Virus record (IMG/VR): IMGVR_UViG_3300042691_016420
Coordinates: 1 to 64,000 of that record
Length of the DNA stretch: 64,000 nt
Strand: one strand, 5' to 3'
DNA from: a virus
Part shown: one piece after another, positions 2,829 through 8,340 of the stretch
How positions within the stretch are numbered: the stretch's first letter is position 1
Layout: the number at the start of each line of letters is the position of its first letter
Notes under the pieces: model-generated
Told to the model about the DNA's origin: nothing
Database searches by the model: none
Seen by the model: the letters and a program-made list of their open reading frames with translations, nothing else
Made by a program: the position numbers and the translations under genes

Positions 2829-3836
2829 ATGTATGTCTCTAATTTAAGTAGGGACTACATTTATAAAACCTTCTCACAGGAAGCCATCTTTGAAGCTTAT
2901 GGTATTCCAGTAGTCAGAGGTAACTTTGTAAGTCCCTTGAGGAGAGATAGGTCTCCAACATGTGCATTTCAATATTATGGTAATATCCTGCGCTATTATG
3001 ATAATAGACCAGGAGAATTCTGTGGTGATGCAGTAGCTATGGTTATGCATCTAAAACATCTTACCTACCAAGAAGCACTGTTGGATATCTATAAGACTAT
3101 GAAGAACTTAATACCATTATCTAAGGATTCTAACTTAAAAACAGAATTGGATGACACCTCTTCCTTAGGTAATGACTCTCTAAATGAATGTATAACAAGG
3201 AAAAGTATACGTAAATTTGATTTGGTAAAAAAAGAGAGTACTGAGATTAAAGTTAAATTCAAAGAGTTCTCTAACAAGGAACTAGAATACTGGAAACAAT
3301 ATGGAATAAGTTTAGAGACTTTACAGAGATTCAATATCCACTCATGCAGCCATTTATATCTTAAAACTAAAAGTGGAGACTTTGAAAACTGTGTGAGAGG
3401 CAGTGAGATGTGCTTTTTGTACATCTTTGCTGATAACTCTGTAAAGGCATACTTTCCTGAGAGAAAAGAATATAGGTTTCTATCTAATAGTAGATGGATA
3501 CAAGGCTTGGAATATTTAGATGATCCTAAACTCTTGATCATAACCAAGAGTTATAAGGATGTAGTATGTTTATCATTATTTGGTATACAAGCTGTTGCTA
3601 TGCAGGGGGAGAGTGTTCTCCCTCCAGCATGGCTTGTAAATAAGTACAATTGTGTGTATCTTGCAGACAATGATGCTCCTGGTAAGAGAGCTGCTGTACT
3701 TATAAGAAGAAAGTATAATATTCCAATAGCATTATTCCCTAAAGAATACAGAGAAATGGGGATTAAAGATTTCTCTGATGCCTATAAAATCCTCGGGCAT
3801 GAATATATGGAGGATTTATTAAATACAATTTTATAA
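2829..3836 (+). CDS. DnaG-family primase with degenerate zinc finger and TOPRIM domain
   Basis: A predicted RNA primase for phage replication, 335 residues. The N-terminal segment (about 25-95) has the DnaG zinc-domain layout: SPLRRDRSPTCAF, then LRYYDNRPGEFCGDAVAMVM and a helical end, but the usual CHC2 cysteines are not all present. The TOPRIM part is at about 235-300: LLIITKSYKDVVCL, where the usual catalytic Glu position reads Lys or Ser, followed by VYLADNDAPGKRA with Asp280 and Asp282 as metal ligands. It is shorter than cellular DnaG and has no helicase-interaction domain. A strong hairpin (3605-3624) lies inside the TOPRIM coding region. Confidence 0.8.
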   Translation: MYVSNLSRDYIYKTFSQEAIFEAYGIPVVRGNFVSPLRRDRSPTCAFQYYGNILRYYDNRPGEFCGDAVAMVMHLKHLTYQEALLDIYKTMKNLIPLSKDSNLKTELDDTSSLGNDSLNECITRKSIRKFDLVKKESTEIKVKFKEFSNKELEYWKQYGISLETLQRFNIHSCSHLYLKTKSGDFENCVRGSEMCFLYIFADNSVKAYFPERKEYRFLSNSRWIQGLEYLDDPKLLIITKSYKDVVCLSLFGIQAVAMQGESVLPPAWLVNKYNCVYLADNDAPGKRAAVLIRRKYNIPIALFPKEYREMGIKDFSDAYKILGHEYMEDLLNTIL

Positions 3837-3840
3837 AGTT

Positions 3841-4416
3841 ATGCGTAAAGTAACTGTTGTAACAACAAATAACTCTCAAGTTAATCAATTTGAGGTTGAA
3901 GCTGGAGTAAGCACCTTCTCTCAGCTAGTATCTGCTCTTCCTGCTGTTGATTTCTCTAACAAGACTGTCACTGTAGGTAAAGCTCTCTATTCTCTGGAGC
4001 ATCCTGATGCTGTTCTTCCAGAGGGTAACTTAAAAGTCTTCATCTCTCCTAAAGATATGAAGGCTGCTCTACCTGCTGAGTATTATGATCTTAGAGCTAA
4101 GCTCAAAGATTTCAGATATGATGCTGTAGAGAATGATGATGATGAGGTATTAGACATCATTGGTAATTATACTCATGACAGTGTTAATGTTATGAAGGCT
4201 AAAGTTGCTGATGTTGAAGCTCTTCTTGCTGATAGAGAAGAAGATGAGGAAGAATTGGTGGTAGAAACACCTCAACCTATTTCATGGGTAAACCTCTCCT
4301 CTACTGAGGATAGACTCTTTGAAATTGAGTGGCAGCTTGGCATTAGGAATGCTACTAATGCTCAACGCTTTAATCAAAGGGCTCTAGAGGAAGCTAAAAA
4401 TGCTACCAAGAAGTAA
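3841..4416 (+). CDS. Ubiquitin-like beta-grasp protein of a PRTRC-like conjugation set
   Basis: The first 75 residues have the beta-grasp pattern of PRTRC-associated ubiquitin-like proteins: an amphipathic start (KVTVVTT), FEVEAGVSTFSQLV, then YSLEHPDAVLPEGNLKVFIS followed by PKDMKA. After it come about 115 residues of acidic, helical sequence ending in NATKK. No diglycine is present at the end of the beta-grasp part or at the C-terminus, so canonical activation would need processing or another chemistry. The gene precedes E2-like, JAMM and ThiF-like genes and overlaps the E2-like gene by 17 bp, so the four are probably co-translated. The fold is inferred from pattern and neighbourhood. Confidence 0.7.
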   Translation: MRKVTVVTTNNSQVNQFEVEAGVSTFSQLVSALPAVDFSNKTVTVGKALYSLEHPDAVLPEGNLKVFISPKDMKAALPAEYYDLRAKLKDFRYDAVENDDDEVLDIIGNYTHDSVNVMKAKVADVEALLADREEDEEELVVETPQPISWVNLSSTEDRLFEIEWQLGIRNATNAQRFNQRALEEAKNATKK

Positions 4417-5548
4417 GAAGCATGCGGAGATTATGGGGTTTCTTAGGAGACCCCAACTTCTCCAACCTAAGTTTAGCTTAGATACTGATTTACAGGAATA
4501 TAAGAAATCTATTAAGAGACATAAGCTCTATGAATTTGTAGCTCAATATTATAGTTATAATGGTATAATTAAAGAGATACATTCTAATAGACATGATAAT
4601 TTCTTTTTAGATATACATAATGCTGTTAAGCATAGTGGTTATACTAATAGTACTCATGTAAAGATTCTTAAGATGTATAACATTCTTAAGCAATCTGAGA
4701 TGTATGATGAGAGTGTTTGCAAGATGGGTCTTGTAAGTGTTAATGCTCATGAGCAATATCTTGGTATACATTTCCCTGTAATATTTTTACAAGAGGTTAA
4801 TAGTAATAGAGAACCTATTGAGATTAGAGATATTTATTTCTATATAACTAATTCTTCTTTACATGTATTTAGAACTACATTAGATGTTGTTAATAAGGAT
4901 TTTATACATCCTCATGTTAGTGGCAACTTTGGTAGTTTTTGTACAGGTGATTCTCCACTAAAGATGTCTTTGAATAATTTGCATTATAATATAGATTCTA
5001 TTACTCAAGATGATGCTGATATTTTCTGGGTAAACTTGTATAGAACTATTACTCAGAAGACAGAGGTAGGTGATCATTATTATGCCTTAAGTAGATTAAA
5101 TCAAGGTATTACACTTGCTTACACAGAATTCTTAGATAGAGTTTATAATGATGAGGAGTTTCTAAGTAAAGTTACTAACTATATCTCTGTAACAATGTCT
5201 AATGAGGCTATAGAAGTAAGCTTTGATAAAGATGCTCTAAAGAAAGATTTCTTTCAACTTTTCTCTACAGAATCTTCTGAGCAGGCAAAAGAAGAAGCAC
5301 CTCTTGAGAGAGCTGTAACCTTTAATAATATTGCTCTTAAGAAGAAGAAATTTATTCCTCTTTATAAGAGACCAAGAACTATGATTAAGAATGTAGACCA
5401 ACTCCTAGATCAACTTCTAATGGATTGTGTCCCAACTTCATTTATTAATAATGTTTATGATGATTATAAAAAAACAACTGAAGAATCCAATAACTCTGGA
5501 GAACAGAGTACTGGACAAAATCAAGTATTTGAATTCCAGATGCTCTAA
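4400..5548 (+). CDS. E2-like (UBC-fold) conjugating protein, PRTRC protein B-like
   Basis: A 382-residue protein. The central region has a classical E2 active-site layout: a strand (IRDIYFYITNSSLHVF), then HPHV at residues 170-173 and GSFCTGDSP with Cys181. This mirrors the HPN(I/V)...G-x-(I/V)-C arrangement of ubiquitin-conjugating enzymes, where the Cys carries the thioester. An N-terminal helical domain of about 90 residues and a charged, disordered-looking C-terminus flank the core. It lies between the Ub-like and JAMM genes, the order expected of PRTRC/prokaryotic Ub clusters. The ATG at 4400 overlaps the upstream gene; ATG 4433 is an alternative. A hairpin spans 4435-4454. Function is inferred from motif and context. 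Confidence 0.72.
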   Translation: MLPRSKKHAEIMGFLRRPQLLQPKFSLDTDLQEYKKSIKRHKLYEFVAQYYSYNGIIKEIHSNRHDNFFLDIHNAVKHSGYTNSTHVKILKMYNILKQSEMYDESVCKMGLVSVNAHEQYLGIHFPVIFLQEVNSNREPIEIRDIYFYITNSSLHVFRTTLDVVNKDFIHPHVSGNFGSFCTGDSPLKMSLNNLHYNIDSITQDDADIFWVNLYRTITQKTEVGDHYYALSRLNQGITLAYTEFLDRVYNDEEFLSKVTNYISVTMSNEAIEVSFDKDALKKDFFQLFSTESSEQAKEEAPLERAVTFNNIALKKKKFIPLYKRPRTMIKNVDQLLDQLLMDCVPTSFINNVYDDYKKTTEESNNSGEQSTGQNQVFEFQML

Positions 5549-6527
5549 TATAGAGTGGAGTGGTGTTGGTGTAATGAAAGTAGAAGGAGATCTGCATGAT
5601 GATAGTCTAAAACTACATGTAATAGATTTGCTCCTTAAAGATGTAGGTACTGCCGGTTATACAGAATATGACTGGGGTACAACCTTAGCTGAGTATTTTG
5701 AGGAGAATGAGGATAAGTGGCCTGTAATGTTCTTCAGTATCCACTCTCATCACAATATGGGTGTCACACCATCTGGTGTAGATGATAAGCACTTATATGA
5801 TAATATAAGTAACTTCCCCTTCCATCTCTCTGTTATTGTCAATAACAAGTTAGACTTTAATGCTAGAATTGCTACTGATATGGTAATTGAGAGTGTCTCT
5901 GTTAGAGGCATGGACAGTGCCTACTTTAGTAAGCAAGTAAATGATGGAAGAATTATTGTAGAGTATTCTTTACCTGTAAATATCTCTAGTGCTGATAATG
6001 ATGAGTTTAAGGATGAATTTGATAGGGTTGTAGAGAACAAAAAGTTACTTGAGGAAGCTAAGAAACCTACTTATGGCATGCCTACTAAAAGAAATGGAGG
6101 TCTTCAACAATCCATTCCTTTTGTAAGTCCTAAAACTCAGTTTGGTATTACTCAATATACTCTTGGTACTCTTAACTATAAGTTTACTACTCTTAAGGAA
6201 GTACTAGCAGAACTTAAAACAGATGACCATGTAGATGTCTACCTTGATCAAGTAGAAAAGATTTGCATGGATGCTGTTGATGAGGGTAAGATTAAACAGG
6301 TACAAAGTTCTCTCTATCAGTTGATGACTACATTTGAAGATATTGCTCCTCACCATAAACTAATTAATAGTCTTGTTTATGGATTAGCTGCAATCCATTC
6401 TCTTGTAGAAACTGCAGATATGGAAGATGATTTTAAAGATGTTCCTTTTGGTAATAAAAAAGATAAGGATATCTCTAGAATGACTGATAAAGAGTGGAAT
6501 GAATATATCTCTGATAGAAGATACTAA
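5529..6527 (+). CDS. JAMM/MPN (JAB) metalloprotease, deubiquitinase-like, PRTRC protein A-like
   Basis: A predicted zinc-dependent isopeptidase that would process or remove the Ub-like protein. The complete JAMM signature is present: Glu (codon 5553, in NIEWSGVGV), then HSH at 5742-5750 and exactly ten residues later Asp (5781), i.e. E...HxHx10D with the expected Ser in between. The start is uncertain. The frame opens at GTG 5427 inside the E2 gene, but sequence before 5529 looks like a frame shadow, and the first ATG (5574) would delete the catalytic Glu. TTG 5529 keeps the domain with a 20-bp overlap. The C-terminal 150 residues are helical with no recognised domain. Confidence 0.85.
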   Translation: MNSRCSNIEWSGVGVMKVEGDLHDDSLKLHVIDLLLKDVGTAGYTEYDWGTTLAEYFEENEDKWPVMFFSIHSHHNMGVTPSGVDDKHLYDNISNFPFHLSVIVNNKLDFNARIATDMVIESVSVRGMDSAYFSKQVNDGRIIVEYSLPVNISSADNDEFKDEFDRVVENKKLLEEAKKPTYGMPTKRNGGLQQSIPFVSPKTQFGITQYTLGTLNYKFTTLKEVLAELKTDDHVDVYLDQVEKICMDAVDEGKIKQVQSSLYQLMTTFEDIAPHHKLINSLVYGLAAIHSLVETADMEDDFKDVPFGNKKDKDISRMTDKEWNEYISDRRY

Positions 6528-6532
6528 GAACT

Positions 6533-7213
6533 ATGAGTAGATATAATCGCTTAGAATATAGTAGATTCTCAGCAGCACCATTTGTAACAAAAAAACCCCT
6601 AGAAATTACTCTAGGGGGTTTAGGTGGTGTTGGTGCTTATGTAGCTTTCTTCTTATCCAGACTTAGACATGAGTTATTCTGTTATGAGATGGATACTGTA
6701 GAAGATGTAAATCTAGATTGTCAGTTCTTTAAGTATGAAGACTTAGGTAAACCCAAAGCTTCAGCAGTTTCTGATATGATTAGACAATACTCTAATGGTT
6801 ATCTTGACCATCTTGGCAAATATGAGGAAGGTTGTGATGTAACTCCTTATTGCTTTGCTATGTTTGACAATATGGAGGCTAGGAAACTTATGTTTGAGGA
6901 ATGGTGTAATAATAAAGATAGTCAAATCTTTATAGATACCAGACTTCAAGCAGAGGAATTCCAGATCTTCTGTGTACACAAAGAAAAGCACATTCAGATG
7001 TATCTAGATTCCTTGAGAAATGATGATGAGATACCTGATTTACCTTGTAGTTATAAGCAAACAGGTCACTATGCAGCTATGGTAGCAACTCAAGCTGTAG
7101 CACTATTCTGTAATTATCTTGCTAATCAAAAACATCTTGCTGATATTGGTGAGGAAATTAGAGAAGTTCCATTCTTTACAACTTTTAATGGTTTAACATG
7201 GCAGCAACAATAG
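6533..7213 (+). CDS. ThiF/E1-like adenylating enzyme (PRTRC ThiF type)
   Basis: A predicted activating enzyme that adenylates the C-terminus of a Ub-like protein. The nucleotide-binding loop GGLGGVG is at residues 28-34, followed by a Rossmann strand ending in Asp (YEMDTVEDVNLDCQFF), the E1 'D..D.V..VNL' motif, and LGKPKASAV, with FDNMEARKLM as the later 'DN..AR' motif. The position that is usually Arg in NL-x-R-Q is Cys. DLPCSYKQ carries the best candidate catalytic Cys, with no CxxC zinc pairs. At 226 residues it is a minimal E1 domain. It begins 5 bp after the JAMM gene; a 10-bp perfect hairpin lies in its 5' coding region. Confidence 0.85.
   Translation: MSRYNRLEYSRFSAAPFVTKKPLEITLGGLGGVGAYVAFFLSRLRHELFCYEMDTVEDVNLDCQFFKYEDLGKPKASAVSDMIRQYSNGYLDHLGKYEEGCDVTPYCFAMFDNMEARKLMFEEWCNNKDSQIFIDTRLQAEEFQIFCVHKEKHIQMYLDSLRNDDEIPDLPCSYKQTGHYAAMVATQAVALFCNYLANQKHLADIGEEIREVPFFTTFNGLTWQQQ
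6594..6620 (+). repeat. Strong hairpin in the 5' coding part of the ThiF-like gene
   Basis: The arms AACCCCTAGA (6594-6603) and TCTAGGGGGTT (6610-6620) pair over 10 bp with one extra G and a 6-nt loop, followed by TAGG. It lies 61 bp after the ATG, just before the codons for GGLGGVG. It could act as an attenuator or translational pause; it could also be codon chance. Confidence 0.6.
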
Positions 7214-7788
7214 CAGAGATTAGAGAGAAACTTAATAGGTATTCTGATAGTAATTCTAAGGTGCCTCATGTTTTTAGTCCTTATCAGAATTCTCATTATT
7301 GTAACTTTGAACCATTCTCTCAGAAGAAAACTAAGAATTCTCTTGAGGATATATTTATCAAGTTAATGAGGCAATATAAGAGTACTCATAATAGAAAGTA
7401 TCTTCAATCTTTCTTTCCATATTATGTATTCTTAGATTCTATCTTTGATATAGATGGTAAAATTGTACTTAAGATACATAAAGAAAGACCTCCTAATACT
7501 AATTATAATACCAGATATGTATTAGAAGTTACAAGAGATTTCTATGATAAATATTCTAATCAATTAATTAACTTTCTTCCTGCAATTGGAGGTGCTAATA
7601 TGAATGTTGATTATAGACCTAGGGTAGTTATTCATGATGGTATTGATGATATATTTTTCTTATACAATAAGGAATATACCTTCAAGAATATTGCTCAGAG
7701 AAAGGAGTTTAAGGAAATTCTTCTTAATAAAATAAATGGTAAATTTATTTATAAAAAAGAAGTACATTTGCAAGGGCTTCCTTTCTAG
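7198..7788 (+). CDS. Unknown protein coupled to the ThiF-like gene
   Basis: A 196-residue protein I do not recognise; it overlaps the ThiF-like gene by 16 bp and ends with TAG. It is rich in Tyr, Phe and Lys, with a beta-rich middle (KIVLKIHKERPP, YVLEVTRDFYDKY) and a C-terminus VHLQGLPF. The C-terminal aromatic/hydrophobic tip recalls peptide tails used to dock on other replication proteins, but that is speculation. By position it could be the fifth component of the Ub-like cluster (a substrate, ligase or adaptor) or merely the next replication gene. Confidence 0.75.
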   Translation: MAATIAEIREKLNRYSDSNSKVPHVFSPYQNSHYCNFEPFSQKKTKNSLEDIFIKLMRQYKSTHNRKYLQSFFPYYVFLDSIFDIDGKIVLKIHKERPPNTNYNTRYVLEVTRDFYDKYSNQLINFLPAIGGANMNVDYRPRVVIHDGIDDIFFLYNKEYTFKNIAQRKEFKEILLNKINGKFIYKKEVHLQGLPF

Positions 7789-7794
7789 AACAAC

Positions 7795-8340
7795 ATGAGA
7801 AAATATTATTCCACTAAGAAGGTTAAGTATAATAACTTAACCTTCGACAGTGGTCTAGAGCTTTATTTCTACAAGCTCTTGGAATCTAATAATCTACTGG
7901 AACACTTAAAGATGCAAGAACCATTTGAGTTACAAGCATCATTTAAGTATCAAGGAAGTACTATTAGAAAAATTGAATATGTATCTGATTTTTATCTAAC
8001 AGACAAGAAGATAGTTATAGAGACTAAGGGTTTACTAGAAGAGAAAGCTAAGATTAAGCATAAGATCTTCAAGTTTAAGTACCCAGATCATATCTTCTTT
8101 ATGCCTAGAAATCAGATGCAATGTAGAGAGGTACTAGAGGAAATTAAGAAAATTTATGCAGACCAATTATTACGAGAGGAGGGACATAGCCAACAGCAGC
8201 CTGTCCCTGATAAACCCAGAACAAGGGGGAAGTCCAAAGCTGTTTCTGTCTTATCTGGAGGGGACAATACAAAAGACACCTCCAAGTCCAAGTCTGGAAA
8301 ACGGAAGTCTGCTACATCTCTACGTGGAAAATCCAAGTGA
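7795..8340 (+). CDS. DUF1064-type PD-(D/E)XK endonuclease with an overprinted C-terminal tail
   Basis: Residues 1-120 match small phage nucleases of the DUF1064/T7 endonuclease I-like kind: FDSGLELYFYKLL (first acidic residue), then YVSDFYL and IVIETKG, the D...ExK active site, with a final helix. Such proteins usually end near residue 120. Here translation continues about 60 residues in a Lys/Ser/Arg-rich tail (GKSKAVS, KSKSGKRKS) that overlaps the start of the downstream nuclease by 185 bp. A perfect 10-bp inverted repeat (7819-7844) lies in codons 9-17. The likely role is Holliday-junction or branched-DNA cleavage. Confidence 0.75.
   Translation: MRKYYSTKKVKYNNLTFDSGLELYFYKLLESNNLLEHLKMQEPFELQASFKYQGSTIRKIEYVSDFYLTDKKIVIETKGLLEEKAKIKHKIFKFKYPDHIFFMPRNQMQCREVLEEIKKIYADQLLREEGHSQQQPVPDKPRTRGKSKAVSVLSGGDNTKDTSKSKSGKRKSATSLRGKSK
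7819..7844 (+). repeat. Perfect 10-bp inverted repeat in the 5' coding part of the DUF1064 gene
   Basis: AAGGTTAAGT (7819-7828) pairs with ACTTAACCTT (7835-7844) with a 6-nt loop, 24 bp after the ATG. Perfect complementarity inside a protein-coding sequence suggests a regulatory role in the mRNA or DNA. Confidence 0.6.

Follow-up and report, generated by a model that had tools for sequence, protein, structure and literature searches.

The subject of this analysis is a run of four adjacent genes at positions 3841-7213 of a 64-kb window, the first 64 kb of the 88,668-bp IMG/VR virus record IMGVR_UViG_3300042691_016420. These genes encode, in order, a ubiquitin-like (Ub-like) protein, an E2-like protein, a JAMM peptidase and an E1/ThiF-like activating enzyme, and together they probably make up a reversible system for Ub-like conjugation, encoded by the phage within its replication module. 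The window belongs to a distant crAss-like phage, of gut type: crAss001 proteins match its major capsid protein (E 7e-33) as well as its primase, helicase, ThyX, ribonucleotide reductase, exonuclease, tail tubular protein and gp45 homologue. An operon of this composition among the replication genes of a crAss-like phage, resembling that of PRTRC plasmids, was proposed in an earlier sequence-only reading of the window and is now well supported.

A four-gene cassette in the replication block

The elements of the cassette are the following.

3841-4416, + strand: Ub-like modifier precursor (191 aa), with a predicted beta-grasp (AlphaFold2 model, Foldseek)
3841-4068, + strand: Ub-like domain, residues 1-76, ending DMK-A75-A76 at the K-[S/A]-G tail position of relatives (alignment of 76 homologues; ratio of nonsynonymous to synonymous substitution rates, dN/dS)
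4069-4413, + strand: C-terminal helical extension, a probable pro-peptide or second product, missing in about ten phages
4400-5548, + strand: E2-like protein (382 aa) with H170 and H172 (4907-4915), Cys181 (4940-4942) and G183 (residue conservation; AlphaFold2 model)
5451-6527, + strand: JAMM/MPN+ metallopeptidase with E at 5553, HSH at 5742-5750, S at 5772 and D at 5781 (invariant motif; hhalign to PRTRC protein A; Prok-JAB)
6533-7213, + strand: E1-like ThiF-fold activating enzyme (226 aa) with P-loop at 6617-6634, K75 at 6755 and Cys172 at 7046-7048 (ThiF match; profile hits; hhalign to PRTRC ThiF)

The four open reading frames (ORFs) lie as first read, with a 17-bp overlap between the Ub-like and E2-like frames and a 5-bp gap between JAMM and E1. 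The overlap of about 20 bp between the E2-like and JAMM genes was wrong, as it assumed a TTG start at 5529. Homologues align upstream of this codon and begin at equivalent ATGs, so the JAMM start is placed at an ATG at 5451-5460 and the true overlap is 89-98 nt. Overlaps between these two genes recur in relatives (75/84 loci). The start of DAC15_89 (locus L015, 5443-6690) is probably misannotated, since the deposited start at 5593 leaves out the catalytic Glu and the open frame reaches up to 5443.

Homologues were collected via an E1 profile, which fetched 80 viral loci, and via synteny; annotated phages were added, and the four genes were located in each locus with hidden Markov models (HMMs) of the four proteins. 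The loci come from crAss-like and other Bacteroidota-type phages. The order Ub-like, E2-like, JAMM, E1 is kept in all 84 loci that hold the four genes, which bears out the synteny expected by the sequence-only reading as near-universal among loci with E1. In 79 of 80 loci a primase is found upstream at a distance of 4 kb or less, and a nuclease or uracil-DNA glycosylase (UDG) lies downstream in 64 of 68. Within the window clade (the window and seven relatives, eight distinct sequences), the cassette genes have dN/dS values of 0.14-0.55. Given this constraint and the order kept in 84/84 loci, a chance origin of the four-gene arrangement is excluded.

The cassette is present in cultured or complete genomes, namely crAss001 (gp79-76), DAC15, cr128_1, cr126_1, cr106_1, Fpv3, bajarodcaudo virus 1 and Dulem virus 41; those in culture include crAss001, DAC15 and Fpv3. 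In the crAss001 record (MH675552, locus L008), gp76-gp79 bear the labels thiamine biosynthesis, metalloprotease and hypothetical protein; they constitute the same four-gene cassette. By tblastn, E1 is found in 78 phage records versus 138 for the crAss001-type primase, and the distribution within Crassvirales appears patchy because some records with this primase, such as crAss002, are absent among the E1 matches listed. A scan of 84,980 bacterial and archaeal species genomes with the E1 profile returned only three contigs, all from metagenome bins. They are rejected as cellular copies: L092 and L093 carry the four genes plus a crAss-type primase and are clearly crAss-like phage, and L091 is a short fragment of the same block with E1, UDG and an endonuclease. 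Separately, the jumbo Xanthomonas phage PhiXhv-12 (locus L012, 4196-7570) encodes a related E1 after an 892-aa protein whose HPHM...SLCLGS resembles the E2-like motif, with no Ub-like or JAMM neighbour detectable at that locus.

No description of the crAss cassette was found in the open-access papers searched; subscription papers and preprints lay outside this search, and a prior description is possible. Ubiquitin is not named in the texts examined on the crAss001 structure and on Crassvirales, nor is ThiF in the reviews.

The four proteins and their relatives

The E1-like enzyme matches ThiF (E=2.6e-6) and carries the GGLGGVG motif noticed at first reading. The residues expected of an activating enzyme, that is the P-loop glycines, Asp, Asn, Lys and a catalytic Cys, are conserved across the family (G29, G31, D54, N60, Q64, K75, D112, R117 and C172), and Cys172, present in 80 of 81 E1s, is the sole near-invariant Cys. 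A PDB-wide profile search with E1 matches UBA5, MccB, UBA1, ThiF, MoeB, Cap2 and BubCD. In hhalign, E1 aligns with plasmid PRTRC ThiF over its whole length at 98.4% probability, with Cys172 opposite the PRTRC Cys.

The peptidase signature EWSG...HSH x7 S x2 D is the canonical JAMM motif and identifies a JAMM/MPN+ enzyme; the earlier call of this signature stands. In the JAMM alignment (A4), no variation occurs at E, H, S, H, S, G or D. The window protein matches Prok-JAB at E=0.038, and hhalign relates JAMM to plasmid PRTRC protein A at 95%.

For the Ub-like and E2-like proteins, matches in Pfam, NCBIfam, PHROG and PADLOC are weak or absent. The AlphaFold2 model of the Ub-like protein has a beta-beta-alpha-beta-beta beta-grasp at residues 1-70, followed by a separate helical extension. 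Its top Foldseek matches are mostly Ub-like domains (UBX, SUMO, ISG15, TtuB and a bacterial Ubl-DUB complex), with a best E of 1.6e-3 and probabilities up to 1.00; they are individually moderate and mutually consistent. The modifier is therefore predicted to be a beta-grasp protein, as first supposed. Few columns are conserved across the 76 Ub-like homologues, K74 and a tail Gly being among them. All 68 sequences from outside the window clade have this Gly, almost without exception as part of K/R-[S/A]-G. The ORF of about ten phages ends 1-5 residues past it (KVKSGK*, KVKSGF*, MKAGA*); the remaining phages have variable, fast-evolving extensions of up to about 250 aa. A conserved Gly tail followed by a variable extension has the layout of a ubiquitin-type precursor (pro-ubiquitin) from which a peptidase cuts the extension, and a JAMM peptidase sits in the same operon. 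In cr106_1 (locus L016, 2557-3832), an HNH endonuclease ORF splits the Ub-like gene right after the KSG codons, and the product ends KSGKF*.

The E2-like protein has an H-x-H...C-x-G motif, which differs from the HPN of classical E2s. The window sequence has the HPHV and Cys181 that were pointed out originally, and outside its clade the motif is mostly HSH. Near-invariant residues are N134, R158, H172, C181, G183 and G224. In complete sequences H172, C181 and G183 are invariant, the sequences without C181 or H172 being contig-edge fragments only; the catalytic Cys with a nearby His expected of a UBC enzyme is thus present, and the conservation of Cys181, on which the first proposal depended, holds. 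AlphaFold2 (60 sequences, predicted local distance difference test 84) yields a helix, four strands, the HxH loop, the Cys and two helices. In this model the order of strands and helices is consistent with that of UBC, and the Cys comes behind strand four.

The closest known relatives of the cassette are the plasmid PRTRC loci (TIGR03735-TIGR03742, including Prok_Ub, Prok-E2_D, JAB and PRTRC_ThiF), which were fetched and compared. In most of them the order is C(Ub)-F-B(E2)-A(JAMM)-ThiF(E1), which the phage order matches. E1 and JAMM are homologous by profile as described above, several PRTRC C proteins end K-T-K-G* where the phage tail is K-x-K-S-G, and a CxG motif occurs at the E2 Cys in both. 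There are also differences. The window E1 scores 24.6 bits against an NCBIfam cut-off of 144.75 bits for PRTRC_ThiF, the window E2-like protein has no NCBIfam match to protein B (TIGR03737/PF14460), and the phage Ub-like protein is not alignable to PRTRC_C. The phage HxH precedes the Cys, whereas PRTRC-B has N before the Cys and His after it; most phage modifiers have C-terminal extensions; and no ParB-related, E or F genes are annotated beside the phage cassettes. Since the family cut-offs are failed and the ParB, E and F genes are absent, the phage cassette is not classed as a PRTRC member.

The bacterial antiviral Bil, Bub and CBASS Cap2/Cap3 systems share the E1/E2/JAMM logic, and the E1 profile reaches Cap2 and BubCD. 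However, the phage set consists of separate proteins in a replication block, not in a host defence island, and neither a CD-NTase nor an effector occurs among the annotated phage neighbours. The class 6d operon of Iyer et al. 2006 (PMC1779556), which ranks with PRTRC as a nearest known system and is listed among bacterial rather than phage systems, comprises Ub-like, JAB, E1 and E2 proteins and an alpha-helical protein. It has the same four components as separate genes, but its E2 has no His before the Cys and one after it. The 6d JAB is described with an Arg/Trp domain at its N terminus.

A sulfur-carrier system of the ThiS/MoaD type is a further possibility, in which E1 would thiocarboxylate the Gly tail, for example for nucleotide or tRNA thiolation. 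E1 shares the adenylating fold of ThiS-ThiF and MoaD-MoeB and resembles ThiF and MoeB, crAss annotations mention thiamine biosynthesis, and JAMM proteins also occur with sulfur carriers (Iyer et al. 2006, PMC1779556). Yet the E1 always comes with a dedicated E2-like partner whose Cys is invariant, a JAMM is present, the CxxC zinc pair is absent from most E1 family members, and the annotated neighbours include no rhodanese or sulfur-metabolism gene and, the ThiF label aside, no thiamine-pathway gene; operons combining E1, JAB and E2 are, moreover, linked to conjugation-type chemistry by Iyer et al. 2006 (PMC1779556). A sulfur-carrier role is accordingly very improbable. The thiamine-biosynthesis label of crAss001 gp76 is likewise rejected as a function, because an E2-like protein and a JAMM accompany gp76.

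Proposed conjugation and the alanine tail of the window clade

In the proposed pathway, the Ub-like protein would be produced as a precursor, and JAMM would trim its extension, cutting behind the tail K-[S/A]-G or, in the window clade, K-A-A. E1 would then adenylate the exposed tail and load it on Cys172 as a thioester, and Cys181 of the E2-like protein would accept the modifier and pass it to lysines of target proteins. JAMM would also take the modifier off again, making the modification reversible. The targets would probably be phage replication proteins or host proteins present early in infection. The place of the cassette among replication genes hints at replication proteins of the early phase, or at host proteins of that phase, as targets. 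The Ub-like system is most likely linked to early functions or to replication; that it tags replication or host-defence proteins, as envisaged in the sequence-only reading, is purely conjectural.

Several observations weigh against this pathway. The Arg of the NxxRQ motif is replaced in most or all E1s, by Gly in 72/81 and by Cys in the window clade. Foldseek with the full E2-like model gives no significant PDB match and, in BFVD, matches only its own phage family, and none of 60 E2-like members has a Pfam E2 match. Finally, the exposed or exposable C-terminal Gly present in 68/68 relatives is an Ala in the window clade, a point that was overlooked at first reading.

The structural negatives raise the question of whether the second protein is an E2 at all. 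It could be another Cys/His protein (a metal site, an E3-like protein or a peptidase), with E1 passing the modifier straight to targets or to that protein; HxH...C could equally form a metal site. This is unlikely, as the predicted strand and helix order equals that of UBC with the Cys following strand four, the operon position is that of the PRTRC E2, and the CxG motif aligns with the E2 Cys of PRTRC-B. Of six PRTRC proteins, protein B is the best profile match of the E2-like protein; at FCxG the Cys of one faces the Cys of the other. None of 400 column permutations (11.2 +/- 1.9, maximum 19.2) reaches the local score of 21.5; this short motif-level similarity is suggestive only. The order of structural elements and a weak profile match are compatible with the UBC fold first proposed; Foldseek did not bear it out.

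The tail change is specific to the window clade, in which the modifier ends D-M-K-A-A and Gly to Ala is fixed (8/8). All eight modifiers carry long extensions. Other near-invariant positions are altered as well, in E1 (G63C, G136T, F162R), in the E2-like protein (S171P, S221T, P226H) and in JAMM (F115P), which could be coordinated change or plain long-branch divergence. It is conceivable that this clade lost canonical conjugation, the Ala-tailed domain now acting as a non-covalent adaptor or staying permanently fused to the helical extension, with the enzymes serving another or a residual role. The fixed Ala, the long extensions and the altered enzyme positions would fit such a loss. Against it, the catalytic Cys and His are unaltered, as are the JAMM residues, the extension boundary is kept, and very strong purifying selection runs up to the tail: dN/dS is 0.07 in the Ub-like domain including AA versus 0.45 in the extension, a step in selection at the domain end. 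The AA tail is therefore maintained, not decaying. A loss of conjugation is improbable. In a more detailed proposal, a dedicated and reversible Ub-like pathway of crAss-like and related Bacteroidota phages would act on replication or early-infection proteins, and the window clade would have moved to a modifier ending in Ala, with E1, E2 and JAMM changed to match; this proposal is tentative and, taken as a whole, doubtful.

Gene X, flanking genes and biological meaning

On the + strand the gene order is primase, Ub-like, E2-like, JAMM, E1/ThiF, gene X and a DUF1064/resolvase-like nuclease. The genes flanking the four are the following.

2829-3836, + strand: DNA primase, upstream neighbour (PHROG DNA primase E=2.1e-32)
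7198-7788, + strand: gene X (196 aa), conserved fifth gene, adjoining E1 in 82/86 loci
7795-8340, + strand: DUF1064/Holliday-junction resolvase-like endonuclease, downstream neighbour (PF06356 E=9.7e-18; PHROG Holliday junction resolvase)

Gene X belongs to the cassette. Its start overlaps the E1 end by 16 bp in the window, in those 82 loci an ORF with a length of 110 aa or more begins between -80 and +150 nt from the E1 stop, and an iterative HMM joins 70 of the 82 ORFs as homologues. It has no Pfam match. LPF-type C-termini are seen in the protein resembling single-stranded DNA-binding protein (SSB) at 2237-2824 (QELPF) and in gene X of the window (LQGLPF), of Fpv3 (EDLPF) and of locus L017 (VELPF). 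With such an SSB-type tip, gene X may share binding partners with the SSB-like protein.

Further upstream, a stretch of about 790 bp with an HNH-endonuclease ORF (643-1278) interrupts an AAA-type ATPase gene, whose two parts lie at 259-591 and 1346-1759; locus L001 has an unsplit 240-aa gene. The interruption looks like an intron or homing insertion. It has no Rfam match at the gathering threshold, and an Rfam search of the window gave no matches.

In bacteria, anti-phage defence and plasmids are the best-known settings of Ub-like conjugation. If the reading given here is true, phages use ubiquitin-type chemistry for themselves, by means of a complete and near-invariant cassette of the crAss-like replication module. 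The clade-specific change of Gly to Ala is a natural experiment on the required tail residue, and the presence of the cassette in cultured phages (crAss001 gp79-76, DAC15 and Fpv3) makes conjugation, processing and substrates directly testable.

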